DNA of 21,214 bases, from positions 1-21,214 of the IMG/VR virus record IMGVR_UViG_3300045118_000692. One strand, written 5' to 3'. Below are positions 6,788 through 21,214 of this stretch, in pieces. A program made the position numbers and the translations under genes. Within the stretch, counting starts at the first letter, position 1, and each line of letters starts with the position of its first letter. Origin of the DNA: a virus. The notes beneath the pieces were generated by a model. It was not told the DNA's origin. It ran no database searches and was given only the letters and a program-made list of their open reading frames with translations.

Positions 6788-7105
6788 ATGAAAAAATTTA
6801 TAGTGGCAACCTTTCTTATAGCAATAGCTATTCTTGTTTTTGTTTCAAGGGGTTATTGTGCTGAAGATTGGTCGCAATATGAATCAGGGAGGGATAATAT
6901 TCGGCTTGACGGGTATCACGGCCAGCCTGGATATATCGCTTTTACTGATGGTGATGGAACGATTGAAGGATATTTGTTTGCTTCTGGGAATAAACTACTC
7001 TGGGTTTCGCCAAATGCTTTTAGCACTGCTTTTGGTTCTTCTCAGGTTACAGAGGCGTCTTATGCCAATCGTTTAAGCACTGTTGCGGTTAATTATCCTT
7101 ACTGA
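6788..7105 (+). CDS. secreted small protein next to the capsid gene, unknown function
   Basis: This 105-aa protein has an N-terminal Sec signal peptide: MKK, a 17-residue hydrophobic core, and a likely cut after C24-A25 before E26-D27. The C24 context (R-G-Y-C) does not fit a lipobox, so I read it as signal peptidase I, not a lipoprotein. The mature 80 residues look beta-rich and hydrophilic (IAFTDGDGTIEGYLFASGNKLLWVSP) and end in V-N-Y-P-Y. The start has a strong AAAGGAGG site and the gene is tightly coupled to the capsid gene. A signal peptide on a product of the capsid operon is unusual, because virion proteins assemble in the cytoplasm. I do not recognise the family. Confidence 0.7.
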   Translation: MKKFIVATFLIAIAILVFVSRGYCAEDWSQYESGRDNIRLDGYHGQPGYIAFTDGDGTIEGYLFASGNKLLWVSPNAFSTAFGSSQVTEASYANRLSTVAVNYPY

Positions 7106-7110
7106 GATAA

Positions 7111-7144
7111 AAGACAGACGGGGGTTTATTCCCCCGTCTGTCTT
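7111..7144 (+). terminator. perfect 14-bp hairpin downstream of 6788-7105, likely terminator or processing site
   Basis: AAGACAGACGGGGG (7111-7124) pairs perfectly with CCCCCGTCTGTCTT (7131-7144) around the loop TTTATT. The stem is symmetrical and GC-rich at the tip. The T tract after it is weak (TTAATATTAT), so it may terminate only in part or act as an RNA stability or processing element. It starts five bases after the stop of the secreted protein and ends six bases before the next ATG. Confidence 0.65.
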
Positions 7145-7150
7145 AATATT

Positions 7151-8260
7151 ATGCTTAAGCAAAAGAATATAATTGTACTATTGATATTCTTTACGGGCAT
7201 ATTTTTATTCAAGATGCCTTATGAGAATAATATTTGTATTACCCCTCAGATAGTATATTTATTATTCAGTGCTGGATTATTGTTTTATTTCTGTTTAGCA
7301 AAAGTCAATAAATATATCGGATTTTTATTTCTTATTGCCTTACTTATGACTTGCAGGACATATCTTGGAGAGAAAGCGTCAAAGTATTATTTGTTTGAGG
7401 ATATTATTTTAGGTTCATCTATGTTCGCAACTTATTATGCTATAAGAATATTGGATATAAGAGAAAATATATTGAAGTTTTTTATATTTCCGGCGTTGGT
7501 AAATTGCGGGTTTGTATTTATACAGAAATTTATGCCTGGATTTTTGCCTTTTCCCGAAGGCATATATGGGATGTTAGGGGTGAGTGGCTCAACGGCCTGT
7601 TTTTTGGGTGCGACTATTCCGATATTTTACAGGTATTTTAAGATAGGCATTATCCCCGTATTTTTAGCTATTTTATTATGTGGAGGTTCGGTTGGATTAG
7701 TCGCGGGAATTATAGGTTTATTGATTATGTTGTTTTTTGATGTTAAGAACAAAAAAAAGATAATCGCCATATCAGCGTGCGTTTTGATTATGGCGGCATT
7801 TTCTTCTTATAAATTTAAGATAATAAATAACTTTAAGACTGATTTTGACCAACGGATGTCTATGTATATAGGCACACTTGACGGGATTAAATACCATCCT
7901 ATAAATGGATGGGGCGTGGGAAGTTTTGCATCAATAATGGCAAGGGTAAAGCCAGAAAATAGCAAGTATTTCAAGGGAGTGCCATTTAATGACGGAAAAT
8001 ACTTTATGAACCATCCGCATAATGAATCTCTTTATTACTGGTGGTCTTTAGGGATTTTCTTTATGGCAGGATTGTGTTTTTTGGTTAAGGACTATCTTAA
8101 AAAATTAAGTTTTAATAATATATTGCCTGCCTCAATTCTTGCGGCGATGTGCATAATTATGTCCGGCTATCAACTTAAACCGCCGATTATATTTTTAATG
8201 ATGTCGTCAATGGGGATATATGAAAACGAGTATCATAACAAGGAGGAAATATGCCAATAG
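7151..8260 (+). CDS. O-antigen ligase/polymerase-like (WaaL/Wzy) membrane protein
   Basis: This 369-aa polytopic membrane protein has about nine or ten hydrophobic segments and a large loop at about 220-300. The loop carries the WaaL/Wzy_C hallmarks: R235 (RMSMY), Y-H-P-I-N-G-W-G-V-G-S-F (248-259) and H-P-H-N-E-S-L (288-294). Family members join or polymerise O-antigen or related glycans on the periplasmic face of the inner membrane. In a phage it would probably alter the host surface polysaccharide (seroconversion, superinfection exclusion). No Shine-Dalgarno precedes ATG 7151; the hairpin at 7111-7144 occupies that space. The gene seems more AT-rich than its neighbours, as expected for a cargo ('moron') gene. 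Substrate and direction (ligase versus polymerase) cannot be told from sequence. Confidence 0.75.
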   Translation: MLKQKNIIVLLIFFTGIFLFKMPYENNICITPQIVYLLFSAGLLFYFCLAKVNKYIGFLFLIALLMTCRTYLGEKASKYYLFEDIILGSSMFATYYAIRILDIRENILKFFIFPALVNCGFVFIQKFMPGFLPFPEGIYGMLGVSGSTACFLGATIPIFYRYFKIGIIPVFLAILLCGGSVGLVAGIIGLLIMLFFDVKNKKKIIAISACVLIMAAFSSYKFKIINNFKTDFDQRMSMYIGTLDGIKYHPINGWGVGSFASIMARVKPENSKYFKGVPFNDGKYFMNHPHNESLYYWWSLGIFFMAGLCFLVKDYLKKLSFNNILPASILAAMCIIMSGYQLKPPIIFLMMSSMGIYENEYHNKEEICQ

Positions 8261-8382
8261 AGAAACCGGATTCCGATTTTGACAGGTATGAAAATAAGCA
8301 GGGGAAAATGGATGAGAGTCATAAAACAGGAAAAAATGTTTATGTCAAAGGAGAAAAAAGAGATGAAAAAAAAGGAAAATAA
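8251..8382 (+). CDS. 43-aa charged protein overlapping the O-antigen ligase-like gene
   Basis: ATG 8251 has an excellent ribosome binding site (AAGGAGG, 8240-8246) and lies ten bases inside the end of the membrane-protein gene. The frame stays open to TAA 8380-8382 and gives a 43-aa, very hydrophilic, Lys/Asp/Glu-rich peptide (starts MPIEKPDSDFDRYENKQGK). The strong site and the tight overlaps on both sides support expression. The function is unknown. The alternative, that the site serves only the longer frame at 8363, is less likely because that gene has its own AAAGGAG. Confidence 0.6.
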   Translation: MPIEKPDSDFDRYENKQGKMDESHKTGKNVYVKGEKRDEKKGK

Positions 8383-8632
8383 AAAGGTGGAAGAAGATGT
8401 AATTACTCCAGATAATGACAACACCGCAGAATTAGAAAAAAAACGGGATAATCTTATAAAAGAACTACAATCAAAACTTCTTACCAAAACCCAATTAAAG
8501 CAGGGTGGGAGAAATATCCGCAACCGAGCGAGTATGGAAAGTGGTTATCAGGCCAATCTGGATGAGATAAATGAATTAGGAAAACAGATAGGAATAAGGG
8601 AGATAGGTTTCGGAGATATAAGAAGAAAATAA
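8363..8632 (+). CDS. small charged coiled-coil-like protein, unknown function
   Basis: This is an 89-aa protein. I choose ATG 8363 because AAAGGAG (8347-8353) stands nine bases before it; in-frame ATGs at 8279 and 8342 have poorer sites. The N terminus is Lys-rich. Residues about 20-45 (AELEKKRDNLIKELQSKLL) should form a helix or coiled coil, and a second helix follows (ANLDEINELGKQIG). It overlaps the 43-aa gene by 20 bases. Nothing recognisable by family. It belongs to a run of three small charged proteins between the O-antigen ligase-like gene and the neck genes. Confidence 0.6.
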   Translation: MKKKENKKVEEDVITPDNDNTAELEKKRDNLIKELQSKLLTKTQLKQGGRNIRNRASMESGYQANLDEINELGKQIGIREIGFGDIRRK

Positions 8633-8633
8633 T

Positions 8634-8966
8634 ATGGTCGGGATAATTATAAAAGGCTCAAGATTTGTTAAAGGGGGTTGTGGGGATAATTGGAATAGGC
8701 GCAAAGATGAACTGCATAGGCGCAGGAAAGAATTAACCGAAAGCATAAAAAAGGGTATTTTTTCAAAGTCAGAGATGAATAAAGGAGAAGAAGGAGAGCC
8801 GGAATTTGATGCAAGGGTAAATAAATACTTCCAATGGATAACAGAAAAGGACAAGGAAATAAGGGAATGGCAGGGCATAAACAGGGAATTCAAAAAACAC
8901 GGTGAGGAAGGCAGGCTACATAGCCTTGATGATTTGCGTAAAGAGGGTAAATTTAAAACTGATTAA
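8634..8966 (+). CDS. small charged protein, unknown function
   Basis: This 110-aa protein starts one base after the previous stop, so it is probably translationally coupled; its own ribosome binding site is weak. It is rich in Arg, Lys and Glu (NRRKDELHRRRKELTESIKKG), with helical segments in the middle and near the end (EKDKEIREWQGINREFKKH). A short glycine-rich start (VGIIIKGSRFVKGGCG) is not a signal peptide. No family is recognised. With the two genes before it, it may form an accessory cassette carried with the membrane protein, or be small neck factors. Context does not decide. Confidence 0.6.
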   Translation: MVGIIIKGSRFVKGGCGDNWNRRKDELHRRRKELTESIKKGIFSKSEMNKGEEGEPEFDARVNKYFQWITEKDKEIREWQGINREFKKHGEEGRLHSLDDLRKEGKFKTD

Positions 8967-8975
8967 GGAGGAAAA

Positions 8976-9308
8976 ATGGCTAATAGGTATAATGCGAAGT
9001 ATATCGTGATTGATACGACAAACACACAGATAGGCGGCCCCAATCCAACAGGTGGGCCTGTCGGGTCTCTGGCAATAAAGGCAATCAAATGGGTTGCTAC
9101 TGCGGCAAGGGATATAGCGGATGCCGATAAGTTGTCTATTGAATGGGGGAAAGATGGCGGTGATGAGGTGATAGGTTGCGACGCCCAATTAGCCGCAATT
9201 ACAGGAAGCGTAATCTATTCGTTGGAATTTGGCGGAAGTGCCTGGATAGTGCCAGGATTATATATAGAGGATATTGATGGTGGCGAACTTTTAATCATAC
9301 TTGAATAG
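8976..9308 (+). CDS. small virion protein, probably head/neck structural
   Basis: This 110-aa protein has an excellent site (AAGGAGG) at ATG 8976. It is not charged like its left neighbours: it is beta-rich, with Gly/Pro turns (QIGGPNPTGGPVGS), an A-I-K-W-V-A-T-A-A helix-like stretch and a C-terminal G-L-Y-I-E-D-I-D-G-G-E-L-L-I-I-L-E. The shape suggests a small decoration or neck protein. It lies before the head-tail adaptor gene, which supports a structural role. No enzymatic motif or signal peptide is seen. Confidence 0.6.
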   Translation: MANRYNAKYIVIDTTNTQIGGPNPTGGPVGSLAIKAIKWVATAARDIADADKLSIEWGKDGGDEVIGCDAQLAAITGSVIYSLEFGGSAWIVPGLYIEDIDGGELLIILE

Positions 9309-9340
9309 GAGATAAATTATTATTCCAATGGAGGTTTTTA

Positions 9341-10243
9341 ATGTCTCCCCAATTACACAGTGAGGGACTGAATTTATACGAGCAATTTATTGAAGTCCGT
9401 AAGGCATTAAGCGAGGCATCTGCTTCCTTCTGGTCTGATTTAGAAATTTACAATAGACTTAATCGCGGGCAGACAGATATTGTAAAAAAATCAAAATGCC
9501 TCAAGCGGACTGTAACTATAACCACGGTAAACGGAACGCAGGAATATGGCTTAAGAGATAATTCATTTTCGGATATTACCGACATAGTAGACGGCGGAGT
9601 ATATTTCAAAATCAACGGCTCAACATACTCTCCACTTACCTTTAAGAGCAAAAAACAACTTGCGATAGAATATCCTGGATGGCAGGGGACTGTCGCAGGG
9701 ACGCCCTCAGTTTATTACTGGAATAAAACCACAAAGACAATCGGCTTATATCCAAAACCTAACTCCTCAAACGCAGGCGCATATTTATTTGTTGAAGGGT
9801 ATCATCTGCCTAAAGTCTTGCACGCAGGAACTGCCTCATCCGGCTCAACATCAACGATAGTTTTGCCTGCGGGTTCTTCTACTCTTCCATATCCTTCAAC
9901 AACTGATGATTATTACAACAATCTTTATATAGAAATTTATTCTGGAACAGGGGCGGGACAAAAAGTTAAGATTACAGATTATGTTGCCTCAACCCGCATT
10001 TGCACGGCGACATTCTCTACTGCACCTGATAATACAAGTGTTTATGGTATGGTGCCTCAAATACCAGAGGATGCGCAAGGGCTTATGATTTCATATGCCT
10101 TATGGAAATTATGGCCGAAAGGCGGAAGCCGTGTAACTTTAGGCGAAAAATATCGCCAGGAATACTATGCGGGATTAAGTGAGTTTATTGGTGAATTTAC
10201 AGAAGATGAGGATGAGGAAATAGTAAGGGATAGTTATAGGTAA
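9341..10243 (+). CDS. head-tail adaptor protein with inserted GTGAGQ beta domain
   Basis: This 300-aa protein resembles the podoviral 'phage adaptor' proteins that dock under the portal. The N-terminal helix contains F-W-S-D-L-E-I-Y-N-R-L-N-R-G-Q (about 30-44). A Y-G-L-R-D segment follows, then G-T-P-S-V-Y-Y-W and I-G-L-Y-P-K-P (about 119-140). The C-terminal helix (QGLMISYALWKLW, then EKYRQEYYAGLSEF) matches the family's end. Between V-E-G-Y-H-L-P and I-P-E-D-A-Q-G, residues about 164-238 form an extra beta module with S-G-T-G-A-G-Q (201-207) and A-T-F-S-T-A-P-D-N-T-S-V-Y, closely like a stretch of the head protein at 5076. Start ATG 9341 has a GGAGG site. Confidence 0.7.
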   Translation: MSPQLHSEGLNLYEQFIEVRKALSEASASFWSDLEIYNRLNRGQTDIVKKSKCLKRTVTITTVNGTQEYGLRDNSFSDITDIVDGGVYFKINGSTYSPLTFKSKKQLAIEYPGWQGTVAGTPSVYYWNKTTKTIGLYPKPNSSNAGAYLFVEGYHLPKVLHAGTASSGSTSTIVLPAGSSTLPYPSTTDDYYNNLYIEIYSGTGAGQKVKITDYVASTRICTATFSTAPDNTSVYGMVPQIPEDAQGLMISYALWKLWPKGGSRVTLGEKYRQEYYAGLSEFIGEFTEDEDEEIVRDSYR

Positions 10244-10245
10244 AT

Positions 10246-11802
10246 ATGCCTACTTTATCATATAGACAGGTGGATAGTTTAGATAACATCATCGGGACAA
10301 TAAATATAAGCGATTATTCCGGCGGCCTGAATACTACCGCGAGCAATGAAGAGTTAAAAGATAATGAGGCGATTATCCGCAAGAATTGGGGAAATTCAAG
10401 CCTTGGTGCGATAGAAAAAGTAAATGGCTACACCAAAACCAATTCTGCCACTATGGGAGCTAAACCAATAAGGGGATTATTTAGAGTATATCAATCAGGC
10501 GGAACAAAGCATCTTCTGGCGATGTGCAATGGAAAATTATATTATTCTACTAATAATGGCACAACATTTACTCAAGAGTCAGGAAGCGTTGCTTTTACGG
10601 AAACAGTATTTAATACCGGCGTAAATTACAATAATTTATTCTTTTTTACCAATCCCACGGATAACCTTTATCACTATACCCCTGGAACTACGACCGCCGC
10701 CGCCGCTACTAATACACCTACAGACCCCTGCAAGGTATTATTAAAACGCTCGGATAGAAGATTGCTGGCTTTGGTGAATACCGTTAACGGCTCAACATTA
10801 TATTTTAGTAAAATTGACCCGACAGGGATTGCTGCGGATGACTGGTCGGCTGCTAATGATGCCGGTTCTATCGCCATAGACGGGGCATTATCCGAACCGT
10901 TAACCGGAGGAATGACTTTTGCGGCAGTGGATATAATCTTTAAGGATTATGCCGCTTTTAAGGTCTGGGGTTATCCTGCGCCAGTAGCAGTAAGAATACC
11001 TGGCTCTCCAGGATGCGCTGCCCCTTATTCGGTAGCGCAAGGAGATGGCTTGGGATTTCATCTTGCTCACGATGGCGTTTATATGTATGACGGAAATAAA
11101 TTTATAGATATATCAGACCCCATAAACGACATTATAGACAGTATAAACCCTTCTTATGTACAAAATTCTTTCGGAATATACCGTGATGGATATTATTGGC
11201 TTTTTTATACCGCAAGCGGAAATACCACTAATCAAAATTGCATTATATATGATGTATTTCATTCCAATCCATATGAAGGAAGGAATGTATGGTTTGAAAG
11301 AGATAATTTATTGATGAATTGCCCTGTTGTTTTTAACGGAACAGGAGACGACAACGAGATATATGCCGGAGATTCCGCCTCAACGGGTTTTGTCTATCGG
11401 CTTGATTATTCCTCTACCGGAGCGGACAACACCTCTAATATAGAAGCGGAATACCAAACCAAGTATTTTAACGCTAAACTTCCCCGTCTTGTTAAAAGAT
11501 TTTCAAAGATTATGGTTAGGTATTATCTGGCGAAAGGAAGTTTATTGGTCTATTGGTATACAAATAGAGGATTGACTTCGGGAAGTTTTACTATTTCTCT
11601 ATCGCAGACAGGGGCGGCTTTGGGAAGTTTTGTATTGGGGACTGATGTATTAAGCTCAGATGTTGAAGCAACGCACATTGAAAGATTGCCTGAAACCGCT
11701 ATCGGCAAAGATATATCGTTAAAATTCTACCATAATAATACTGGAAAAGCCCCAATAATCCGTGAATGCGAGATTGAGTGGGAAGGGCTTTATTTGGAAT
11801 AA
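10246..11802 (+). CDS. tail hub/nozzle protein (probable beta-propeller)
   Basis: This 518-aa protein begins two bases after the adaptor stop. The N terminus has the pattern S-D-Y-S-G-G-L-N-T-T-A-S-N-E-E-L-K-D-N-E-A (about 22-42) followed by a K-V-N-G-Y segment. This is typical of large podoviral tail proteins that form a beta-propeller hub or nozzle below the adaptor ring. The remainder is almost all beta, with repeated short strands and turns (LLAMCNGKLYYSTNNGTTF, then NNLFFFTNPTDNLYHYTPG, then GDGLGFHLAHDGVYMYDGNK), consistent with propeller blades. Residues about 425-505 look like a second beta domain. It probably seals the neck and forms the end of the short tail. Equivalent roles in P22-like phages are played by gp10 and in T7 by gp12. 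The call is from pattern and position. Confidence 0.65.
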   Translation: MPTLSYRQVDSLDNIIGTINISDYSGGLNTTASNEELKDNEAIIRKNWGNSSLGAIEKVNGYTKTNSATMGAKPIRGLFRVYQSGGTKHLLAMCNGKLYYSTNNGTTFTQESGSVAFTETVFNTGVNYNNLFFFTNPTDNLYHYTPGTTTAAAATNTPTDPCKVLLKRSDRRLLALVNTVNGSTLYFSKIDPTGIAADDWSAANDAGSIAIDGALSEPLTGGMTFAAVDIIFKDYAAFKVWGYPAPVAVRIPGSPGCAAPYSVAQGDGLGFHLAHDGVYMYDGNKFIDISDPINDIIDSINPSYVQNSFGIYRDGYYWLFYTASGNTTNQNCIIYDVFHSNPYEGRNVWFERDNLLMNCPVVFNGTGDDNEIYAGDSASTGFVYRLDYSSTGADNTSNIEAEYQTKYFNAKLPRLVKRFSKIMVRYYLAKGSLLVYWYTNRGLTSGSFTISLSQTGAALGSFVLGTDVLSSDVEATHIERLPETAIGKDISLKFYHNNTGKAPIIRECEIEWEGLYLE

Positions 11803-11815
11803 GGAGGATATATTT

Positions 11816-12307
11816 ATGTATAAGAAATTTATCTTATTCATAGGATTTATGTTATTGACGACACATCTCTATGCTCATTCTGGGCGTTTAGATAGTGTCG
11901 GAGGGCATAGAGTCAATACAGAATGGGTTTATGAAGGGCAGTATATTGAAATAAAGAATAATATACCAGAATTAAAAAAAGAAAAAATATTATTCAAGCA
12001 GGGAGATTATCATTTTCATTGCAGGCCATCCGCCAATAAAATTGATTTGACCCATTACAGAGATGGCGTATATCTGCCTATTCCAGAAAAAGAAGTTAAA
12101 AATACCGCTACTTCTAATATCCATTTGTCGGAAGAAAATGTAGTGGCAAGCAAAACTTCAAGATTTTATCATACCCCAAAATGCAGATATATAAAAAATA
12201 TAAAAGAAGAGAATATAGTTATTTTTACCGATAAAGAAGAAGCGGTAAAAGCAGGATATATGCCTCATAAAAAATGCAAGGCAGGAGAAATCGGGGGTAA
12301 GAGATGA
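11816..12307 (+). CDS. secreted YHYH-domain plus Ada-like zinc-binding protein
   Basis: This 163-aa protein is read from ATG 11816 (AAGGAGG site; the in-frame ATG at 11762 lies inside the hub gene). Residues 1-20 are a signal peptide ending L-Y-A. The mature protein opens with H-S-G-R-L-D-S-V-G-G-H and has G-D-Y-H-F-H-C at 63-69, matching the secreted 'YHYH' family except for a longer linker. Residues about 116-155 resemble the Ada-type zinc-binding module: F-Y-H-T-P-K-C (H119, C123), a helix E-E-A-V-K-A-G-Y, and P-H-K-K-C (H151, C154). The classical Ada site uses four cysteines; here two positions are His. The domains suggest a periplasmic or extracellular metal-binding protein, perhaps acting on nucleic acid or cell wall. 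Role in the phage is unknown. Confidence 0.7.
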   Translation: MYKKFILFIGFMLLTTHLYAHSGRLDSVGGHRVNTEWVYEGQYIEIKNNIPELKKEKILFKQGDYHFHCRPSANKIDLTHYRDGVYLPIPEKEVKNTATSNIHLSEENVVASKTSRFYHTPKCRYIKNIKEENIVIFTDKEEAVKAGYMPHKKCKAGEIGGKR

Positions 12308-13200
12308 AAAAATATATTTTAACTTTTATTGTATTGATGTTTTTATTCAATAACGCTTATGCCCTTAATCTTGCCAGGGTAAAAACTTGGAGTAATGGAG
12401 AAATACTTACGCATACTGACTTAAACGCGGAATTTGACAATATATTAAACCATTCAATAGTCAATGCTGATGTTTCCGCAAGCGCGGCTATTGTGGGAAG
12501 CAAGCTTGATTTAAGCGTTCCTGGGGCGATAGGCGGGACTACACCTGCAGCAGGGGCATTTACTACCCTATCAGCTTCATCTACTTTGGCAGTTACGGGA
12601 AATGCTACTTTTAACGGAAGCAATACTTTAGGTAACGGGGCAGATACCCTTACCATAAATTCCTCGTCAGGCATAACCTATACCCCTGCGGCAACCTGGA
12701 CTTTTACTGCGGCCCAGACAGTATCAGGAACTTGGGCCAATTTAGGCACAGTTACCACAGCCGACATAAACGGTGGCACGATAGACGGCGTTACTATAGG
12801 TGGCTCATCCGCTCCCACGACAACTAATATCGGCACGGTAGCCGCAGGCACCTGGCAAGGGACTGCCATAGCCACAGGATATGGCGGGACAGGAGTAGCA
12901 ACTGATGACAGGATAATTGGGGCTTGGGTAAACTTTCAGGGTTCATCTACAATAAACGACAGCTACAATGTTGACAGTGTAACGGATAACGGCACGGGGA
13001 ATTATACTATAACAATCACGACAGATTTTGCTTCAGCTAATTATGTAGTCGCAGGCAATACCGCTGATGACAGTAATGCAATTCGTTCCGTTCAGATAGA
13101 GGCTATTGCGGCAGGTTCTCTCCAAGTAATTTTAAGAGATACATCCGCAAATCCAGCAGATTCAAACCCAGTTACTATAATGATGTGCGGAAATAGATAA
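12304..13200 (+). CDS. tail-fibre-like protein with a Sec signal peptide
   Basis: This 298-aa protein has two striking parts. Residues 1-20 (MKKYILTFIVL...NNAYA) are a textbook Sec signal peptide with cut after A-Y-A. Just after it comes A-R-V-K-T-W-S-N-G-E-I-L-T-H-T-D-L-N-A-E-F-D-N-I, the usual N terminus of phage tail-fibre proteins. The middle is low-complexity G/T/S repeats (IGGTTPAAGAFTTLSA, TFNGSNTLGNGADTL), and the end (GAWVNFQG, then NYTITITTDFASANYVVAG) is a typical fibre tip domain. It overlaps the previous gene by ATGA. A signal peptide is not expected on a fibre assembled in the cytoplasm, so it may be an exported surface protein derived from a fibre, or a fibre that assembles in another way. 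Confidence 0.7.
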   Translation: MKKYILTFIVLMFLFNNAYALNLARVKTWSNGEILTHTDLNAEFDNILNHSIVNADVSASAAIVGSKLDLSVPGAIGGTTPAAGAFTTLSASSTLAVTGNATFNGSNTLGNGADTLTINSSSGITYTPAATWTFTAAQTVSGTWANLGTVTTADINGGTIDGVTIGGSSAPTTTNIGTVAAGTWQGTAIATGYGGTGVATDDRIIGAWVNFQGSSTINDSYNVDSVTDNGTGNYTITITTDFASANYVVAGNTADDSNAIRSVQIEAIAAGSLQVILRDTSANPADSNPVTIMMCGNR

Positions 13201-13209
13201 GGAGAGATT

Positions 13210-13656
13210 ATGAAAAAAATAATTTTATTGTTGTGTTTTGTGTTCATTTACCAATACTCCTTCGCTGAAATAATCAGGGTTTGGTATTGTCCCGATGGTT
13301 CGGTAAAGGTTACATCCGTAAGTAAAAAATCAAAACTTCCAGGTGAAACAGACGAACAGCATAGACAAAGGATATTTACTAATACTGGCATAGCCAATGG
13401 GTGGGAAAGTTATCCTTATGATGATATTGACAGTTCTGAATTACCAGACGCGGATATATATTTCTCTAAAGGATTAAATCATCCTTATTTTAATATGTGG
13501 GAGGGCGAACCCGGGAAAAAAGTAAAAATTAATCAACAGAAGGTAAAAGAGATAAATGATAAGAAGCAAAAAGACATTCAAGACAAACAGGGAGCTGTAA
13601 ATAAATTAAAGGCGTTAGGTTTAAGCGAGGATGAGATAGCGGCGATTAAAAAATGA
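13210..13656 (+). CDS. signal-peptide protein related to tail-fibre accessory proteins
   Basis: This 148-aa protein starts at ATG 13210 (AAGGAGAG site). Residues 1-19 form a signal peptide ending S-F-A. The mature part starts I-I-R-V-W-Y-C-P-D-G-S-V-K-V-T, continues with L-P-G-E-T-D-E-Q-H-R-Q-R-I-F and P-Y-D-D-I-D-S-S-E-L-P, and ends with a helix, K-L-K-A-L-G-L-S-E-D-E-I-A-A-I-K-K. This layout recalls small phage proteins encoded beside tail fibres, often called tail-fibre assembly or fibre-associated proteins, which have no signal peptide. It follows the fibre-like gene by nine bases and probably forms a pair with it. Assembly chaperone activity is only a suggestion. If exported, it would act outside the cytoplasm. 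Confidence 0.6.
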   Translation: MKKIILLLCFVFIYQYSFAEIIRVWYCPDGSVKVTSVSKKSKLPGETDEQHRQRIFTNTGIANGWESYPYDDIDSSELPDADIYFSKGLNHPYFNMWEGEPGKKVKINQQKVKEINDKKQKDIQDKQGAVNKLKALGLSEDEIAAIKK

Positions 13657-13946
13657 AAAACTTTGATATATTCTTAAATATCCCGCAGTTAAAAGACCCC
13701 GAAGAACAAAGAGAAATGGCGGCCTTCTGCGCTAAATTGCAAGAGATATTGCAGTATATTAGCAACAATCTGGGAGCAATTAAAGTATTGACTTCTGCTC
13801 CTGCGGCAGGCGAGCTTGATGTAAGAGGCGATGGGCAGGGGAATGTATTGAGTGAGGTTGCAATACTTGATAACGCTATTGCTGGTTCAAGAAAAATTTA
13901 TTATAAAGAAGTTGGAGGTAATTTAAGAACTATTACAAGCGCATAA
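13653..13946 (+). CDS. small virion-associated protein, unknown function
   Basis: This 97-aa protein overlaps the previous gene by ATGA, so it is probably coupled. The N-terminal half (about 15-42) is helical (EQREMAAFCAKLQEILQYISNNLG). The C-terminal half is a short beta part (PAAGELDVRGDGQGNVLSEVAILDN, then RKIYYKEVGGNLRTITSA) that resembles the ends of phage fibre or spike accessory proteins. No signal peptide is present, unlike the three genes before it. The last 14 bases overlap the end of the minus-strand homing endonuclease gene, tail to tail. Function unknown. Confidence 0.65.
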   Translation: MKNFDIFLNIPQLKDPEEQREMAAFCAKLQEILQYISNNLGAIKVLTSAPAAGELDVRGDGQGNVLSEVAILDNAIAGSRKIYYKEVGGNLRTITSA

Positions 13947-14577
13947 GATGGACTTGATATCCTTTAGGATGATGAATTTTGCTATGTTCAGAATTATTAA
14001 AAAACAATTTAAGATTTTCTATTTTATTATCAAGAGTATTTCTATTTATATGATGGACTATTTCTTCAGGTTTAAGATATCGCCCAAGATGTTTTTCCAT
14101 TACAAGTCGGTGCTCAAGAATATATCCAGTTTTTGTAGCAAAAGGATGTTTGTGATTTTTAATAAGTATATATTTATTTTTTCCAGAAGTTATTATTTTA
14201 CCACCTTTCCATTGATGATTATTTTTTCCAGAAACTGCTTTACTAATTTGAGGGCATTTTTTACCTTTATTCCAAGCAGGTTTTCCTTTATGAGCAATAC
14301 TCAATTTTTTGCGAGTTTTCAAAGAAAGTTTCTTACCAAGCATTCTTTGTCTACACTTTTCAGAAAATCCTTTAGGTCTTATTTTTCCTTTATTAGCCAA
14401 ACTTATTTTTCTTCTCCATTCTTTAGAAAGATGACCTCTTTTTTTACCAGTCCAATATCCTGGTCTTTCTTTATGAGCAAAATTTCTGCATTTAAGAGAA
14501 CAATATCTTCGTATATGATTTCTACTTTTGAATTTCTTTTTACAAAATTCACATATAAAATTATACATTTTATACAT
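13933..14577 (-). CDS. free-standing HNH homing endonuclease with NUMOD3-like repeats
   Basis: This 214-aa minus-strand protein has an N-terminal zinc finger (C9, C12, C26, C30). NUMOD3-type DNA-binding segments follow, with repeated K-x-S-x-A-N/H-K-G-K pieces at about 55-105 (KISLANKGK, KLSIAHKGKPAWNKGKK). The C-terminal HNH nuclease domain reads E-H-R-L-V-M-E-K-H-L-G-R-Y-L-K-P-E-E-I-V-H-H-I-N (about 155-178), then the D-N-x-x-E-N-L-K helix and H198. Such enzymes cut alleles that lack them and spread by repair. No intron or intein borders are visible, so it is free-standing. The start has AAAGGAG at 14590-14584, six bases away, and a sigma70-like promoter upstream (see next entry). It is the only minus-strand gene. 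Its 3' end overlaps the gene at 13653 by 14 bases. Confidence 0.85.
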   Translation of the reverse strand: MYKMYNFICEFCKKKFKSRNHIRRYCSLKCRNFAHKERPGYWTGKKRGHLSKEWRRKISLANKGKIRPKGFSEKCRQRMLGKKLSLKTRKKLSIAHKGKPAWNKGKKCPQISKAVSGKNNHQWKGGKIITSGKNKYILIKNHKHPFATKTGYILEHRLVMEKHLGRYLKPEEIVHHINRNTLDNKIENLKLFFNNSEHSKIHHPKGYQVHLMRL

Positions 14578-14583
14578 TATAAT

Positions 14584-14590
14584 CTCCTTT
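14584..14590 (-). promoter_or_regulatory. ribosome binding site of the homing endonuclease
   Basis: On the minus strand AAAGGAG lies six bases before ATG 14577. It selects this start over the in-frame ATG at 14568. Confidence 0.75.
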
Positions 14591-14599
14591 CATTAAAAA

Positions 14600-14628
14600 A
14601 TTATACTATAAATATAATAGCAAATCAA
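14600..14628 (-). promoter_or_regulatory. sigma70-type promoter for the homing endonuclease
   Basis: On the minus strand, TTGATT (14628-14623) and a perfect TATAAT (14605-14600) are separated by exactly 17 bases, in an AT-rich tract. This is a good housekeeping-type promoter pointing into the endonuclease gene. It lets the gene be expressed apart from the late operon and against its direction. Confidence 0.75.
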
Positions 14629-14647
14629 GAACTTTATTATAATTATT

Positions 14648-14935
14648 ATGCTTTTTACCACAAAAGATAACTTAGGCAATATCCAGGCAGTATGCGAATA
14701 CAATAAAGTCAATCAGCAAGGCAAGTTAGACAAGCAAGGTAAATATGTTTATATCGCCAATGTTGAGATTAATCCCTCGGCAAGGAATAATGGAATACTT
14801 AAAAAATTCATAAAAATGATAACTGATAAATTTCCCGATATTGAATATGGATATTTTAAAAGGGATATTAAATATAGTGGACGCCGGCGAATGTATACAA
14901 GACAACAATGGCTAAACAGAATAAAGGAGAATTAA
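14648..14935 (+). CDS. small GNAT-acetyltransferase-like protein
   Basis: This 95-aa protein has a V-Y-I-A-N-V-E-I-N-P-S-A-R-N-N-G-I-L-K-K-F-I-K segment (about 34-56). It resembles the central strand and the R/Q-x-x-G-x-x acetyl-CoA loop and helix of GNAT acetyltransferases. GNAT domains are usually about 140 residues, so at 95 residues it lacks the N-terminal strand-helix part and may be truncated or only GNAT-like. No Shine-Dalgarno is visible before ATG 14648: the space is taken up by the endonuclease promoter region. The end has R-M-Y-T-R-Q-Q-W-L-N-R-I. The gene ends one base before the next start. Acetylation of a host or phage protein is possible but not shown. Confidence 0.55.
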   Translation: MLFTTKDNLGNIQAVCEYNKVNQQGKLDKQGKYVYIANVEINPSARNNGILKKFIKMITDKFPDIEYGYFKRDIKYSGRRRMYTRQQWLNRIKEN

Positions 14936-14936
14936 G

Positions 14937-15986
14937 ATGAACTGGATATTGCCATTACTGTCTTTATCGGCGTGGGCTTATTTATTTATTCATAGCAAGA
15001 ATATGCGTAATAAATACGGCAGGAGCAAAGTGCCTTTTGTCTTGCGCGGTGGCGGGGATGATGAAGAACCGCCTCCAGCACCAACCTATCAACAACCTTC
15101 CTGGTCAGCAAATCTTCCTCCTGAAGTATTGGGTTATATTAGACAAGGCGTAGGAAAGCAGATTACAGAGCCGACCGAATATGGCTTAGTCAGTCAATAT
15201 CTTCAGAATCTAATGGGATATAAGCCGGAGCAATTTGCTTATCCTTTGACCGATATCCAAAGAGCATTAGAGGCGCAACAAGCACTTCAATTAGAGCAAT
15301 ATCAAAAACAGATACGGCCTGTTTTGGCTCAGCAAGGGCAATTAGACAGCACTTATTATGCCAATCTCTTGGGCGATTATATAAAGAACCAGCAATCGCA
15401 AGCATTGACTAACTATGCCAATCTTTTGACTAACCAAGCAACGCAGAATTATAATCTCGCTCAATGGCTTCCTCAATTCCAGAGTTCTGTTGCAGGACAA
15501 TTAGCCGGTCTTGGTGGGCAAAGAGTAGGGATACAACAATATAATCTGCAATATCCTTATCAGACTTATATTCCTGCATTGCAAGGTATATATGGAGCAG
15601 GACAACAAGAGGCGATGAATATGCTTCAACCACAATTAGCGCAATATAATAATCAATATCAACAGTATCTGCAAAATCAGCAACAGCAAAATGCTTTAAT
15701 GTCATCAATATATGGGGGTTTAGGACAATTAGGAATGAGCGCCTTGACTGGTGGTTTAGGCGGATTGGCTATGGGGACAGGATTTGGGTCAGGGGTTTTG
15801 TCTGGTCTTTTCGGCATATCTCCCAGCACAATATATCAAACAAACGCATTAAGCAAAATTTTAAATCCTACAACTTTTCCTTCAACAGGAGTAAGTTCAA
15901 AATTGCTTTGGCCTTCTTCTGGGAGTTATTATACAGACTTATTAGGTGGTCGGACATTAGGGCAATTAGGAGGCATATATGGCTAA
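14937..15986 (+). CDS. probable internal virion (ejection) protein 1
   Basis: This 349-aa protein has a hydrophobic N-terminal segment (about 2-18) that looks like a membrane anchor rather than a cleavable signal: no A-x-A follows and the next residues are basic. A Pro/Gly-rich linker follows, then a long Gln-rich helical region (about 100-255). The final stretch, about 258-349, is rich in Gly, Leu and Ser and moderately hydrophobic (GGLGQLGMSALTGGLGGLAMGTG). Gln-rich helices plus a glycine-rich apolar part are typical of podoviral internal proteins that leave the capsid first and help DNA cross the envelope, such as T7 gp14 and P22 gp7. AAAGGAG precedes the start. The call rests on composition and on the two following genes. 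Confidence 0.55.
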   Translation: MNWILPLLSLSAWAYLFIHSKNMRNKYGRSKVPFVLRGGGDDEEPPPAPTYQQPSWSANLPPEVLGYIRQGVGKQITEPTEYGLVSQYLQNLMGYKPEQFAYPLTDIQRALEAQQALQLEQYQKQIRPVLAQQGQLDSTYYANLLGDYIKNQQSQALTNYANLLTNQATQNYNLAQWLPQFQSSVAGQLAGLGGQRVGIQQYNLQYPYQTYIPALQGIYGAGQQEAMNMLQPQLAQYNNQYQQYLQNQQQQNALMSSIYGGLGQLGMSALTGGLGGLAMGTGFGSGVLSGLFGISPSTIYQTNALSKILNPTTFPSTGVSSKLLWPSSGSYYTDLLGGRTLGQLGGIYG

Positions 15987-16812
15987 TAATAATTTAAAAT
16001 ACCTTTTCTTGGGCGGTTTGCAGGAATTACAGACTCAAAGGCAAAAAAATCAAGAATTGGCTGATGCACTTTTGCAATTAAAAATGAAGGCAGAATTAGA
16101 CCCAGAAACAAGGTTGATGAATTATATAATGGGTGGAATGGGTGGGCAACAGCCAGCTTTTACGCCACAAGGAATTATGCCTCAAACAGGACAGCAAGGA
16201 ATGGGAATAGACCAATCACAGTTATTGAGAGGAATGTTGAGTAAGAAATTTGGAGTTCCTTATGAGCAGATAATGACTCCAACAGAAAAACAGGCAGAAA
16301 TAAAACAAGCACAAGAAAAAACACGAGCGACAAAACTTGCTGAAATTGAAGCCACAATGCAACCTGCAAAGAATATCCTAAATACACTTAAAACTCAATA
16401 CTTCGCCACTTTTCCAGAAGCACCAGAAACAGGGAAAGGATTAAAAAGATTTAGTTATGGTTTGGCAAAGGGATATGAGGCTTGGACAGAAAGCAATCCT
16501 GCGGTAGCCTCTTATCTACAAACAAGAAACGCATTTCTATCTCTACTTGTAAGAGGATTAGGTGAAAGAGGAGTTTTAACTGATAAAGATATTGAGAGAA
16601 TAAATAAAGCGATTCCTTCTCAATATACGACTAAATCCGTAGCGGAAAGAAACTTCCAGACAATAGAAGATATACTTGGTTCTGCTATACAGAAATATGG
16701 TTCGCAGGGTGGAGATATGTCGGTAGTGCAAAATATTTTTAATAGCGTTGGGAATATGCAATCAACACAACAGCAAGGTGGAAGTTTTAAGGTTTTAAGG
16801 AGATTAAGATAA
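15979..16812 (+). CDS. probable internal virion (ejection) protein 2
   Basis: This 277-aa soluble protein overlaps the previous gene by eight bases and has a GGAGG site six bases before ATG 15979. The N terminus is helical (LQELQTQRQKNQELADALLQLKMKAEL). A Gly/Gln/Met-rich stretch follows at about 50-78, then more helices. The region R-G-L-G-E-R-G-V-L-T-D-K-D-I-E-R-I-N-K-A-I-P is a pattern often seen in podoviral internal and structural proteins. No catalytic motif is visible. Its place between two probable ejection proteins supports the same role. Confidence 0.55.
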   Translation: MANNNLKYLFLGGLQELQTQRQKNQELADALLQLKMKAELDPETRLMNYIMGGMGGQQPAFTPQGIMPQTGQQGMGIDQSQLLRGMLSKKFGVPYEQIMTPTEKQAEIKQAQEKTRATKLAEIEATMQPAKNILNTLKTQYFATFPEAPETGKGLKRFSYGLAKGYEAWTESNPAVASYLQTRNAFLSLLVRGLGERGVLTDKDIERINKAIPSQYTTKSVAERNFQTIEDILGSAIQKYGSQGGDMSVVQNIFNSVGNMQSTQQQGGSFKVLRRLR

Positions 16813-16843
16813 GATGAAATTCTTAAAATAGTGGGAGTTTATA

Positions 16844-18190
16844 ATGGCTGTATGGCAAGTAGAAATTGATGGGGAAATTTATGAGTTAGAAGGCGGAAAT
16901 GTTGCTCCAACAGAACAAGAAGCAAGGTCAACAGTAGGACAATTCAAACAAAGAATTCTGCCTGAAAAAATTACTCAATCTCCCGATGTTCAACTTATGG
17001 CTCATTGGTTAAGGAATATTCCATTTGGGCAAAGGATGGCTTCTGTTGTTTCTGGTCAACCATTAAGAAATATCCAGCAGACTTTGTCCTCAATCCCTGA
17101 ACCACAAGCAAGAACATTTGGTATGGCATTAGGCAAGGCATTGCCTGATATTGCTATGGCAACTCCGGTTATGCGTGGGGCAGGATTACTTGGTCAAATA
17201 CCGAGAGTAGGAAAATTTATTCCACCAATAGCAAAGACAACGGCAGGTTTAAGTGCTTATTCTGGAATTAAAGCAAAAGCACAAAGGCAACCTGTTGCCC
17301 CTGCTATAATCGGTGGGGTAGGTCAAGGTTTATTATTTGGTGGATTAAGTAAATTAGGGGCAACTACTATTCCATCCAGAATACCTTTTGCGGAAAGATT
17401 AGGTTCTGCTTTAGGTGGTGCTACTGCCGGTGCTATTATAGGAGGAACTCCTGAAGAAACAGCGTTTTTTGGCGCATTAGGGGCGATATTTCCAAATCAA
17501 AAAATGACAGTTAGTAAATTAAGAGATTATGCTGGTAATAAAGTTAATTTAACCAGACAAGGAGCAAAACAATACTGGAGGCGAGAAGTTAACGCTTATG
17601 GAAATTCCATAAATCTACTTACTACTGATAGACAACCCATTACTTTAGACCCTCTAATGCAAAAAATGACTCAACAGATGATTGAGAGAAGACTTTATGA
17701 CCCAATAAACCAACAATGGCTTAAACCACTTAATAAAGTGGATGCACAATTATATAAATCTTATGAAAGTTTATCTCGTTGGTTTACGAGTAAAGGAAAC
17801 GCTCCGACAGGAGAAATAATCAAGGAATGGAGAAACATAAGAGATAGTGCTCCGATTGATACTCCATTGGGTAGAGAAGGGCACAATTTGGCTAATGAAA
17901 TGTTAGGAAGCATAAAAGACCAGATTAAATCAGATATATTTCAACAAGCAAATATCCGTTATGCTGATTTTAGAAATAAGTTTGACTTGGTAGATAAATA
18001 TGTTGATGTTTGGGGTAGTCCTTTAGAGACAGCGAAGGGGGAAAGATTTTTAATGGAAGGAAGATTAGGAGCAACTAAAGAAACAAGAGAGACAGGCAGA
18101 ATTATTGAAAAAGAATTGGGGCAGAAATTAAAACGAGCAAAGATAGAAAGCAGTATAAGAAGGCTTCCAATATTAAGGAAATGGTTATGA
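16844..18190 (+). CDS. probable internal virion (ejection) protein 3
   Basis: This 448-aa protein begins with a short beta strand pair (WQVEIDGEIYELEGG) typical of many phage virion proteins. It continues with an apolar, glycine-rich part (about 95-215: IIGGVGQGLLFGGLSKLG, then LGGATAGAIIGGTPEETAFFGALGA) that could insert into a membrane. The C-terminal half is helical and charged, with a Gln- and Trp-containing region (QQWLKPLNKVDAQLYKSYESLSRWF). It is the largest of the three, and the apolar middle resembles pore-forming ejection proteins. A GGGAG site stands before ATG 16844. The order of three ejection proteins after the tail genes matches podoviral gene order. I see no lysozyme (E-x8-D) motif. 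Confidence 0.55.
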   Translation: MAVWQVEIDGEIYELEGGNVAPTEQEARSTVGQFKQRILPEKITQSPDVQLMAHWLRNIPFGQRMASVVSGQPLRNIQQTLSSIPEPQARTFGMALGKALPDIAMATPVMRGAGLLGQIPRVGKFIPPIAKTTAGLSAYSGIKAKAQRQPVAPAIIGGVGQGLLFGGLSKLGATTIPSRIPFAERLGSALGGATAGAIIGGTPEETAFFGALGAIFPNQKMTVSKLRDYAGNKVNLTRQGAKQYWRREVNAYGNSINLLTTDRQPITLDPLMQKMTQQMIERRLYDPINQQWLKPLNKVDAQLYKSYESLSRWFTSKGNAPTGEIIKEWRNIRDSAPIDTPLGREGHNLANEMLGSIKDQIKSDIFQQANIRYADFRNKFDLVDKYVDVWGSPLETAKGERFLMEGRLGATKETRETGRIIEKELGQKLKRAKIESSIRRLPILRKWL

Positions 18191-18245
18191 TAATATTATT
18201 TATTCAAAATCTCTACCTCTAAAGCAATATCAAGGAGTATTTATT

Positions 18246-18551
18246 ATGCTTATCTACGAAATCCATATCTCCGAAACCGCCTCAAGCGGGGCCTGGAGCA
18301 AAAACACCGCAAAATTTGATAATGTTAAAATCAAGCAAATCATCATTAAGGCAAATACTGCCACGACTACTTTTGCCTTTTCAATAACGGATTGGAAAGG
18401 CAATGTAATTTTTAATACCGAAACAAAACCTACCGGCACTCTGCGTCAGGAAGTCAATATCCCAGTAAAAGGTATTTGTACTTTAGCGGTAAGTTCGGCA
18501 AGTAGTGATGAGGCATTTACCGGAAAAATCGTAATACAGGAAGAACCTTAA
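18246..18551 (+). CDS. small beta-sandwich virion protein
   Basis: This 101-aa protein has AAGGAG about ten bases before ATG 18246. It is nearly all beta: short strands alternate with turns (SETASSGAWSKNTAKFDNVKIKQIIIKANTATTTFAFSITDWKGN, then TLRQEVNIPVKGICTLAVSS). Such small all-beta proteins near fibre genes often sit at the base or surface of the tail. The preceding 55 bases (18191-18245) hold no other feature. No signal peptide is present. Role inferred from position. Confidence 0.6.
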   Translation: MLIYEIHISETASSGAWSKNTAKFDNVKIKQIIIKANTATTTFAFSITDWKGNVIFNTETKPTGTLRQEVNIPVKGICTLAVSSASSDEAFTGKIVIQEEP

Positions 18552-18566
18552 CAGAAGGAGAGAACG

Positions 18567-19778
18567 ATGTTTGATAAAAAGTTAAAAGGGCAGATAAGTA
18601 CATTAGAAGAAAAATTTAATGGAGAAATTTCACTTCTGCGGGAATCTCAAAATAACGGTATAAACTCTATTCTTGATAAGATATCTTCTTTTAATGATAA
18701 AACAAGAAAACTGCAAAATGATATAGAGGATATCCGCATAGAAATAGGTTCAAGAATATTAGAAGAATGTTCAACTATAACAAAGATTAATAAAGAAACA
18801 GAAGATAAGGTTGATAAAAATATATCTATCCTATCTGAAGAAACTAAAAAAGAATTAAAGTTATTGTCTGGAAAACTTGACATTATTTCTTCAGTAATTA
18901 ACAATTCTATTTCCTCTGTCAAGGCCGATGCGTTAAAAGGAATCACGGATATTAAAAAATATTGCGATGAGGCATTGGCGCATAATTTTAATATTACCGA
19001 ATCTTTGTGTAAAAACAACTCCATAGAATTGGTGGGAGTAAAAAAAGAACAGGAGATAATCGGGAAACACCTATCTGAAAACGATACAAGGAATAAGTTA
19101 TATATAGATGGCCAGATAGGGATAATTAAAGAGGGCATAGAAAAAATAAACTCGCGCCTTGGAAATATAAGCCAGGAATTATCGCAAAGAACAGGAAGTA
19201 TATCTCACGATGTATATAACTTAAAGGATAGGATTATTAAAACAGAGAACAATATCCAACGGGTATCGGATAAGGTTGACCTGCTGAACACCGATATTCC
19301 AGGATTACGGGAAGCATTAAAAAAAAATTCATCTGATATAGTTAATATCGTAAATGACATTAAAGCGTTACATAGCGGGTTTGATATATTAAAAAAGGAA
19401 TTGAATTTTGACATTAACAGGATTATTGAGGAAAAGACTATTGAATATCGTCAATGGATTAACCAAGAATATTATAATTTGATAAGCGGGGTAATTCTTG
19501 CAGTTAAGAGTTTTATTGTTAAAAATCCCGAAAGCGATAAAGAATTAGAAGAATTAAGAAAGAAACTTGAGCAGAAAGCACTTGAGGAAAAATGGCGCAG
19601 AGAAAAAGAACTCAATGGCGAGAAAATAATCAACAAAGGCGTTCAGATAATAGAAAAAAGACATAATCTTCATCAGGATATATTAGCAAGAGAAAAACGA
19701 GGCGAGAATGTGGAAAAATTAAAAGAACAGTTAAAGGCTTATGATGAGATATTGGAGATGGTTAAATGCGAAAAATAA
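18567..19778 (+). CDS. long coiled-coil protein, probable fibre or whisker shaft
   Basis: This 403-aa protein has heptad-like hydrophobic spacing from about residue 5 to 300 (SLLRESQNNGINSILDKISSFNDKTRKL, then NKETEDKVDKNISILSEETKKELKLLSGKLDII), with a continuous charged helix from about 325 to 400. It has no beta-rich knob and no signal peptide. A length of about 300 helical residues would give a rod of roughly 45 nm if fully extended, so a fibre shaft or whisker is plausible; a structural scaffold of another sort is possible. A strong AAGGAG site precedes ATG 18567. It lies between two beta-rich proteins and the last 13 bases overlap the next gene. Confidence 0.6.
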   Translation: MFDKKLKGQISTLEEKFNGEISLLRESQNNGINSILDKISSFNDKTRKLQNDIEDIRIEIGSRILEECSTITKINKETEDKVDKNISILSEETKKELKLLSGKLDIISSVINNSISSVKADALKGITDIKKYCDEALAHNFNITESLCKNNSIELVGVKKEQEIIGKHLSENDTRNKLYIDGQIGIIKEGIEKINSRLGNISQELSQRTGSISHDVYNLKDRIIKTENNIQRVSDKVDLLNTDIPGLREALKKNSSDIVNIVNDIKALHSGFDILKKELNFDINRIIEEKTIEYRQWINQEYYNLISGVILAVKSFIVKNPESDKELEELRKKLEQKALEEKWRREKELNGEKIINKGVQIIEKRHNLHQDILAREKRGENVEKLKEQLKAYDEILEMVKCEK

Positions 19779-20131
19779 CTCTATGGGTTATTGGAATATT
19801 GTTATTGTCAGGGACTACTTTTGCGCTTGCCGAATCAATAGTCAGAATTGCCCCTTTGACTTATAGCATTAAATCTAATACTACCACAGTAACTACCTCT
19901 GCTACGGCTATACCTGCGACGGCTTTAGTAGGCAGAGAAAGTATCACCATACGCAACATAGACTCTGGGACAACTACAGTCTATGTAGGGGGCTCTGATG
20001 TTACTACCGCAAATGGCTATCCGCTTGACTCAGCTAATCCTGCAATTTCCATAGATATTGATGACTCTGTTGTGATATATGGGATTGTTTCGGCTGGGAC
20101 GGCAAGTGTAAGGTCTTTAGAGGCAAAATGA
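19766..20131 (+). CDS. secreted small beta-rich protein, unknown function
   Basis: This 121-aa protein has a clear Sec signal peptide: MRK, a hydrophobic core, and a cut after A-L-A (22) before E-S-I-V-R. The mature 99 residues are rich in Thr, Ser and Val with short strands (SITIRNIDSGTTTVYVGGSDVTTANGYPLDS, then ISIDIDDSVVIYGIVSAGTASVRSLEAK), likely one compact beta-sandwich. It overlaps the coiled-coil gene by 13 bases and the fibre-like gene by ATGA, so it belongs to this gene group. The folded part resembles small phage virion proteins, but a virion protein would not need a signal peptide. Family not recognised. Confidence 0.65.
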   Translation: MRKITLWVIGILLLSGTTFALAESIVRIAPLTYSIKSNTTTVTTSATAIPATALVGRESITIRNIDSGTTTVYVGGSDVTTANGYPLDSANPAISIDIDDSVVIYGIVSAGTASVRSLEAK

Positions 20132-21214
20132 GATATATTCTTGCAATTATATTGTTATTATTTTCAATATCTCCTGCTTTTGCTACTCGCATAAGAACTA
20201 CTGAAGGCGATGATTTAACAACTTTAGACTCCCGCTACCTCAAACTCTCCGGCTCAAACGCCAATCAGAATATCAGCATAAGCACTTACGGCTTTACCGC
20301 TGGCGACATCCAAGCCACTGGTACTGGCCCGGATTATACCCTGGCTATTACCGGGAGCGATACCTTTGGCATCCACGCTGAAAGCCCGGGCCTCTTATCA
20401 ATTAAAAACAATACTGATAATAGCTACTATCTCCAAGCCGACTCATCCCATAACCTTATCCTTCAACCCTTCCAAGCCAACGGCAAGGTAGGCATAAACT
20501 TAGGCGCAGGTGCTCCGGCATATAACCTTGATGTAAAAGGTTCAACAAGAATTAGCGATGAATTATATCTAACATCCCGCGCCTCTGGCAGGGTGGCTTA
20601 TTTTACCACAAACGGGGCCCTTACAGACAATGCAAACCTTACCTTTGATGGCACAACTTTAAGTTCTACTAATATTACCGCCACATCAACAGGGACATTC
20701 TCCTCCGTTGTTATTCCCACAGTTTTTACCGTAATGACCGAACCTACGGGATTTGTGGATAGAACCGCCACCTTATCATTTACCGACGCAAACAGGACTT
20801 TTTATATAACAGGAAGCCACGATATTTATATACACGGGGTAAAATATTCAAAATCTACTACCTCAAAACAAATAACCGATGTTACAGGGACGCATTGGAT
20901 TTATTATGATAGCACAGGAACGATACAGGAAAGCACCTCTGCGCCGTCTTTCATAAGCAATTCGTTTATCGCCACCGTATATTGGAACTCTACCACGCAG
21001 AAAGGAATTTTAGCAGAAGAGCGGCACGGCATAAAGATGGATGTGGATACCCATTTATTGATGCACGAGACCATTGGCGTTAGATATGAGGGTGGATTGA
21101 CCGGCTCATTTACAGATACAACATTCAGCATTACCACAGGAAATATCCACGATGAGGATATTAATATTTCCATATCAGCCCAAACTACCTGCGATTTATT
21201 TTATAAAAATGGAG
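20128..21214 (+). CDS. tail-fibre-like protein with a Sec signal peptide (runs off the window)
   Basis: From ATG 20128 (ATGA overlap with the previous stop) the frame stays open to the window edge, giving at least 362 codons. Residues 1-19 (MRYILAIILLLFSISPAFA) are a Sec signal peptide. The mature part has phage tail-fibre traits: T-L-D-S-R-Y-L-K-L-S-G-S-N-A-N-Q-N-I-S-I-S (about 32-52), then Gly/Thr/Ser-rich beta stretches (GKVGINLGAGAPAYNLDVKGSTRI, then LTFDGTTLSSTNITATSTGTFSS). A further beta domain with F-Y-I-T-G-S-H-D-I-Y-I-H-G follows. This is the second fibre-like protein with a signal peptide in the window. It may be exported to the host surface or fold outside the cytoplasm. The C-terminal end is not available. 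Confidence 0.65.
   Translation, partial: MRYILAIILLLFSISPAFATRIRTTEGDDLTTLDSRYLKLSGSNANQNISISTYGFTAGDIQATGTGPDYTLAITGSDTFGIHAESPGLLSIKNNTDNSYYLQADSSHNLILQPFQANGKVGINLGAGAPAYNLDVKGSTRISDELYLTSRASGRVAYFTTNGALTDNANLTFDGTTLSSTNITATSTGTFSSVVIPTVFTVMTEPTGFVDRTATLSFTDANRTFYITGSHDIYIHGVKYSKSTTSKQITDVTGTHWIYYDSTGTIQESTSAPSFISNSFIATVYWNSTTQKGILAEERHGIKMDVDTHLLMHETIGVRYEGGLTGSFTDTTFSITTGNIHDEDINISISAQTTCDLFYKNG

Follow-up and report, generated by a model that had tools for sequence, protein, structure and literature searches.

Predicted Sec signal peptides on a tail fiber and other probable appendage proteins encoded in a podovirus late operon

Six genes in a podovirus late operon encode proteins with predicted cleavable Sec signal peptides, and one of them is a tail fiber. 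Our best guess from the sequences is that Sec exports what are otherwise ordinary virion appendage proteins, whose genes are linked in two lineages with that of a phage-encoded Wzy_C protein; we favor it because the forms of the gene 12304 and gene 19766 domains that lack a signal peptide are normal virion modules. The accepted view is that tailed phages build their virions entirely in the cytoplasm. The present data suggest that some particle components cross the inner membrane, either ahead of joining the virus or without ever joining it. If fibers are Sec-exported, disulfides, glycans and a changed order of assembly would become available to phages, and a further step to block would become available to hosts. 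If the proteins are decoys instead, they would form a large uncharted class of fiber-derived exclusion proteins. Natural pairs of homologues with and without a signal peptide make the question directly testable.

The late operon

The window analyzed here, 21,214 nt in length, is the whole of IMG/VR record IMGVR_UViG_3300045118_000692, in which 28 genes were read. It contains a podovirus late operon, with portal, scaffold-like, capsid, adaptor, nozzle, fiber-region and probable ejection-type genes. The window family is known solely from metagenomic contigs. Genes are named below by their first position, and a slash marks a predicted cleavage site.

Gene 1239: portal
Gene 3324: scaffold-like
Gene 5859: major capsid
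6788..7105, + strand: signal peptide protein 1, small; signal peptide at about residues 1–25, YCA/EDW; directly 3′ of the major capsid gene
7151..8260, + strand: Wzy_C polytopic membrane protein (O-antigen polymerase/ligase superfamily), PF04932
9341..10243, + strand: tail adaptor-like virion gene without signal peptide; phrog_399 structural protein
10246..11802, + strand: podovirus tail nozzle (gp10-like) without signal peptide; phrog_3287 and nozzle-chain profile matches
11816..12307, + strand: signal peptide protein 2, with YHYH and Ada-type Zn-binding domains (NF033223, PF02805); LYA/HS
12304..13200, + strand: signal peptide protein 3, tail fiber; AYA/LNLARVKTW; C-terminal part phrog_11355
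13210..13656, + strand: signal peptide protein 4, window-specific; SFA/EI
14937–18190: probable ejection-type genes
19766..20131, + strand: signal peptide protein 5, small virion-module protein, from a family with and without signal peptides
20128..21214, + strand: signal peptide protein 6, fiber-like; gene truncated by the window end

Gene order and nozzle homology are in common with the P22-like, nozzle-bearing podovirus tail module (portal, coat, adaptor, nozzle gp10, needle or fiber). The profile matches of the gene 10246 nozzle are the solved phage nozzle chains 8zkk/8zkm and 9nwi_Y. However, signal peptides are absent from the virion proteins of P22 and T7, whereas the window fibers have them.

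Signal peptides in the window

Signal peptides were called by a rule, not by SignalP: a basic n-region, a hydrophobic core with a mean Kyte-Doolittle value of at least 2, and small residues at −3 and −1. Six of the 28 genes (6788, 11816, 12304, 13210, 19766 and 20128) passed, and the other 22 were negative. The predicted Sec/SPI features comprise the basic n-region, a core of 8–15 residues and the small −3/−1 residues, the core of the gene 6788 protein being long. None of the six N termini has a lipobox ([LVI][ASTVI][GAS]C) at its cleavage site, as a Sec/SPII lipoprotein would. The preliminary description had named these six genes as carrying clear cleavable signal peptides, and this held under the rule for all six and, for some of them, in relatives (see below). 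Its statement that every neighbor is without one stands for cleavable signal peptides but not for hydrophobic segments in general, since gene 7151 encodes a polytopic membrane protein and gene 14937 a hydrophobic N terminus that is possibly an uncleaved anchor. This stretch in the probable ejection-type protein of 14937–15986 (MNWILPLLSLSAWAYLFIH) has no cleavage site and is absent from the L095 counterpart.

At a score of at least 4.2, only 3 of 678 genes were positive in loci whose homologous fiber lacks a signal peptide. Against this background, 6 of 28 gives P = 2.6e-9, a value that expresses only how rarely the rule fires by accident, since the window was picked for its signal peptides. 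Among the late genes of P22 and T7, only that for the Rz spanin of P22 reached this score, and this spanin is a genuine envelope protein.

The start codons are backed by Shine-Dalgarno sites (AAAGGAGG, AAGGAGG, AAGGAG and others). The start of gene 12304 has a weak one and overlaps the preceding stop. For gene 11816, initiation at a GTG further 5′ (11762) would place the signal peptide inside the protein, but the strong Shine-Dalgarno site belongs to the ATG at 11816. The fibers of L095 and L103 contain no internal start codon within the first 40 codons, and from the sequences such fibers seem to be translated solely from the codon that opens the signal peptide. Dual starts yielding a product without signal peptide were rejected, internal starts being missing. 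That the signal peptides are artifacts of rule-based prediction or of wrong start codons is very improbable and largely refuted: the calls do rest on a rule and the 12304 Shine-Dalgarno site is weak, but the false-positive rate is low, several relatives have no alternative start and the signal peptides are conserved.

Conservation in relatives

Searches with the major capsid and nozzle retrieved the relatives L002, L003, L004 (part of the 44-kb record G003), L005 and L095; L103 came via the fiber search. A lack of conserved signal peptides in relatives would have refuted the preliminary description, but the counterparts of genes 6788 and 12304 keep them in L003, L095, G003 and L103. All five members of the 6788 family have a signal peptide whose letters have diverged and whose cleavage site aligns. 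Mean identity in this family is 36% in the signal peptide versus 73% in the first 40 mature residues; for the 12304 family, also of five members, the values are 26% and 66%. Across the signal peptide families, identity is about 26–36% in the signal peptides and about 66–75% in the mature domains, with charge, core and cleavage position kept. As read from these alignments, diverged letters with kept charge and cleavage position are the pattern of selection on signal function. Their retention at the corresponding genes of relatives, despite letters that diverge about twice as much as those of the mature part, speaks for export.

The gene 19766 counterpart in L095 also keeps its signal peptide. 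G003 has signal peptide genes at the positions of both 19766 and 20128, the latter encoding a different fiber-like protein. In L002 the 6788/7151 pair is missing, and a different gene stands there. Outside its virion operon, G003 (L090–L092) has more signal peptide and lipoprotein-like genes.

Because the signal peptides are conserved in relatives, the earlier proposal of an exported set of phage-encoded proteins, some of them fiber-derived, is well supported as a prediction. They may also coat the host or modify its envelope, as was proposed there. Alternatively, the N termini could stay uncleaved and either anchor the proteins in a membrane or, as components of the virion, enter the host membrane during infection. 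The hydrophobic core of the 6788 protein, intermediate between a signal peptide and a transmembrane anchor, would suit this. Yet A-x-A-like sites align across relatives at the mature start and the h-regions of the six N termini are mostly of signal peptide length, and we consider such anchors quite unlikely. The AlphaFold model of the 6788 protein is weak (pLDDT 64, pTM 0.40).

Genes 11816 and 13210 had no counterpart in the related contigs, and genes 13210, 19766, 7151 and 11816 gave zero tblastn matches in 50,697 phage records. The gene 11816 protein matches NF033223 and PF02805 above the cut-off, domains typical of exported bacterial proteins. Such features fit a mixed bag of secreted accessory genes, with 11816 and 13210 as host-derived cargo, the fibers a separate matter and no common system. 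This is improbable, for genes 6788, 12304 and 19766 keep their signal peptides in relatives, and genes scoring at least 4.2 cluster in phages whose fibers have signal peptides (13 of 75 versus 3 of 678 in loci with fibers lacking them).

A second lineage

The preliminary description had also suggested looking for the same gene order in other genomes. G012, an unrelated 49.6-kb phage with a major capsid and a nozzle 28% identical to that of the window (E = 1.4e-21), repeats it. A capsid gene is followed there by a signal peptide protein, at the place that gene 6788 has in the window, then by Wzy_C, a coiled-coil protein and further genes including two signal peptide proteins; the order ends with a nozzle that itself has a signal peptide, two signal peptide fibers with a common Cys pair and another signal peptide protein. 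L220, a fragment nearly identical to G012, has the same nozzle with a signal peptide. On sequence grounds, G012 is an independent second lineage combining a capsid-adjacent signal peptide protein, Wzy_C, and a nozzle and fibers with predicted signal peptides. One G012 signal peptide protein (L164:6615–7967), with a Disaggr_repeat (PF06848) domain, adjoins the fibers.

Two Manatee Spring phage genomes, MW202637 and MW202554, each contain several signal peptide genes, including signal peptide fibers after the gene in the nozzle position. The phage of MW202497 (L221:1682–6001) has GroEL-like and glycosyltransferase genes, as annotated, between terminase and portal. A host search of GTDB contigs with the major capsid profile gave no match, and one with the fiber-domain profile gave a single match, a fiber without signal peptide on a Desulfobacteraceae MAG contig.

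The fiber with and without a signal peptide

Gene 12304 lies 3′ of the tail nozzle gene 10246, with gene 11816 between them, and its C-terminal part matches tail fiber family phrog_11355. Searches gave 80 viral loci that encode the N-terminal domain of the mature protein, RVKTW...LTxxDLNAEFDNI. The position after the nozzle, the N-terminal domain in common with fibers lacking a signal peptide and the C-terminal fiber family identify it as a podovirus fiber. In about 70 of the 80 loci the domain has no signal peptide and the protein mostly starts right at it (MALSRVKTW...). A signal peptide stands in front in about 10, four of which belong to the window family, L130 and L137 being weaker calls. 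The predicted cleavage site coincides with the start of the homologues that lack one (AYA/LNLARVKTW versus MALSRVKTW).

Most of the loci without signal peptide have a gene of ~520 residues directly 5′ of the fiber. Thirty-six nozzle-type sequences were aligned, and 20 of the 36 match the PHROG family of the window nozzle. The cultured Roseobacter phage CRP-207 and environmental podophages likewise have the fiber directly 3′ of the nozzle, with a similar short N-terminal motif, but unlike in the window their fiber has no signal peptide. The nozzle-then-fiber order, common to the signal peptide forms, most other forms and CRP-207, favors the export of true virion fibers. C-terminal tail fiber families are present in the signal peptide fibers of the window, L095, L178 and G012, and the fiber tips vary between close relatives, like receptor-binding parts.

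The gene 19766 family has a signal peptide in the window, L095 and, weakly, G012. It has none in L074, L130, L174 and L178, nor in L139, where it forms the C-terminal domain of a protein. Because the 12304 and 19766 families both have forms with and without signal peptides, virion modules of an ordinary kind have gained or lost them. The fiber-domain tree, although poorly resolved, requires seven changes of state by parsimony, of which at least two are forced by well-supported branches; judged from the sequences, the gain or loss occurred at least twice. The preliminary description had overlooked the normality of these virion modules, and also the linked Wzy_C gene (7151). The homologues without signal peptide favor virion appendages over its separate surface-display system.

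L124 has tandem fiber copies with and without a signal peptide, as would be expected if the form with one had a function of its own. The main and close rival to Sec export with late joining, favored by these paralogous copies, is that the proteins are exported decoys or exclusion factors. From the periplasm or the cell surface, the fiber-derived proteins would attach to receptors or to glycans of the envelope, and Wzy_C would alter a surface glycan; superinfection would be blocked and progeny would not be lost on debris. Exported phage exclusion proteins exist, such as T5 Llp and P22 SieA/gtr, which act in the envelope, and gtr and sieA genes were seen in this analysis. Wzy_C enzymes normally act on surface glycans. 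However, T5 Llp and P22 SieA/gtr, unlike the signal peptide fibers, are not derived from a virion fiber gene. Decoys would need a separate virion fiber without signal peptide, and no such receptor-binding fiber stood out in the window or in the 44-kb G003. The genes belong to the late virion operon, a stage at which exclusion brings little benefit, and the signal peptide on the G012 nozzle is left unexplained. On balance we regard decoys as doubtful, though a serious contender.

The Wzy_C gene

Gene 7151 encodes a multi-pass protein that matches PF04932 above the cut-off (E = 4e-13) and has the catalytic His region, which places it in the Wzy_C superfamily (WaaL/Wzy/PglL). The HN-X9-G motif is present in all five Wzy_C proteins of the family. 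By sequence profile the protein is closest to WaaL (7tpg, E = 0.0017), and WaaL 7tpg is also the top Foldseek match of the predicted model (pTM 0.73), with an E of only 0.063. Thus it resembles the superfamily in domain and motif, with WaaL as best structural relative, but is unlike it in being encoded in a phage virion operon beside a predicted exported protein. WaaL O-antigen ligase acts on the lipid A core, and its gene lies in an LPS locus. The Wzy_C proteins of L095, L003 and G012 fall below the PF04932 cut-off as whole proteins, and that of G012 lacks the motif histidine.

A 7151 homologue adjoins signal peptide protein 1 in all five family records that have the latter, and in G012; the family with both genes consists of these five records, which limits the independent evidence. 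Wzy_C occurs in 6 of 13 records with signal peptide fibers (two lineages) versus 0 of 34 with other fibers, a count that sets aside one weak G010 match containing stop codons. A scan with a single Wzy_C protein gave no match and was less useful than the profile.

PF04932 includes protein O-glycosyltransferases, whose genes often adjoin those of their targets (PMC3643930), as well as LPS ligases. Gene 7151 similarly adjoins a possible exported acceptor, but the PglL-specific motif PglL_A (PF15864) had no match in it and it is not a PglL by this motif.

A model for exported appendages

The reading we put first, tentatively and at somewhat less than an even chance, is that the signal peptides are real and used: the appendages go through the host Sec pathway, are possibly modified in the periplasm, and join the heads at lysis. 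Capsid, portal, adaptor, nozzle and ejection proteins would assemble in the cytoplasm as usual, and the outer appendages (the main tail fiber, the small knob-like proteins and the capsid-adjacent protein) would be exported. Signal peptidase would cut the signal peptide and restore the N terminus that the other homologues have at their start codon. In the periplasm the appendages may fold, form disulfides or receive a glycan from the phage Wzy_C, whose active site should face that compartment. Holin and endolysin action would then mix the compartments and let the appendages join the heads. For P22, spikes and fibers are known to bind completed heads in vitro, away from the cell.

Several points weigh against late joining. 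Most phages with the same fiber manage without a signal peptide, and the tandem fibers of L124 were mentioned above. Wzy_C could act on host glycans instead, and the G012 enzyme lacks the histidine. P22 depends on its nozzle equivalent to retain the packaged DNA, and by this analogy an exported G012 nozzle is hard to fit; it fits neither late joining nor decoys easily. A fuller scheme of two-compartment virion assembly, in which cytoplasmic cores would receive at lysis Sec-exported appendages (in one lineage the nozzle too) matured or glycosylated by the phage Wzy_C, is in our estimate unlikely, though worth stating.

Virion proteins with cleavable Sec signal peptides are known in the filamentous phage M13, namely the coat proteins pIII and pVIII. 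M13 virions assemble in the membrane, however, whereas tailed phages assemble in the cytoplasm. In the literature accessible without subscription, we found no described tailed phage with signal peptides on its fibers.

Other genes of the window

A weak Hydrolase_2/endolysin-like gene (307–774), with neither signal peptide nor anchor, lies 5′ of the portal gene. The head-region protein of 4244–5038, also without signal peptide, has a C-terminal half similar to carbohydrate-binding/tail fiber domains and contains the Cys pairs CKQCGFPC and CPQC. Within the late operon, an HNH endonuclease gene (13933–14577, − strand) occupies a low-GC stretch (about 29%). It is probably mobile, of the homing type, and the overlapping ORF on the + strand (13948–14670) is likely spurious.
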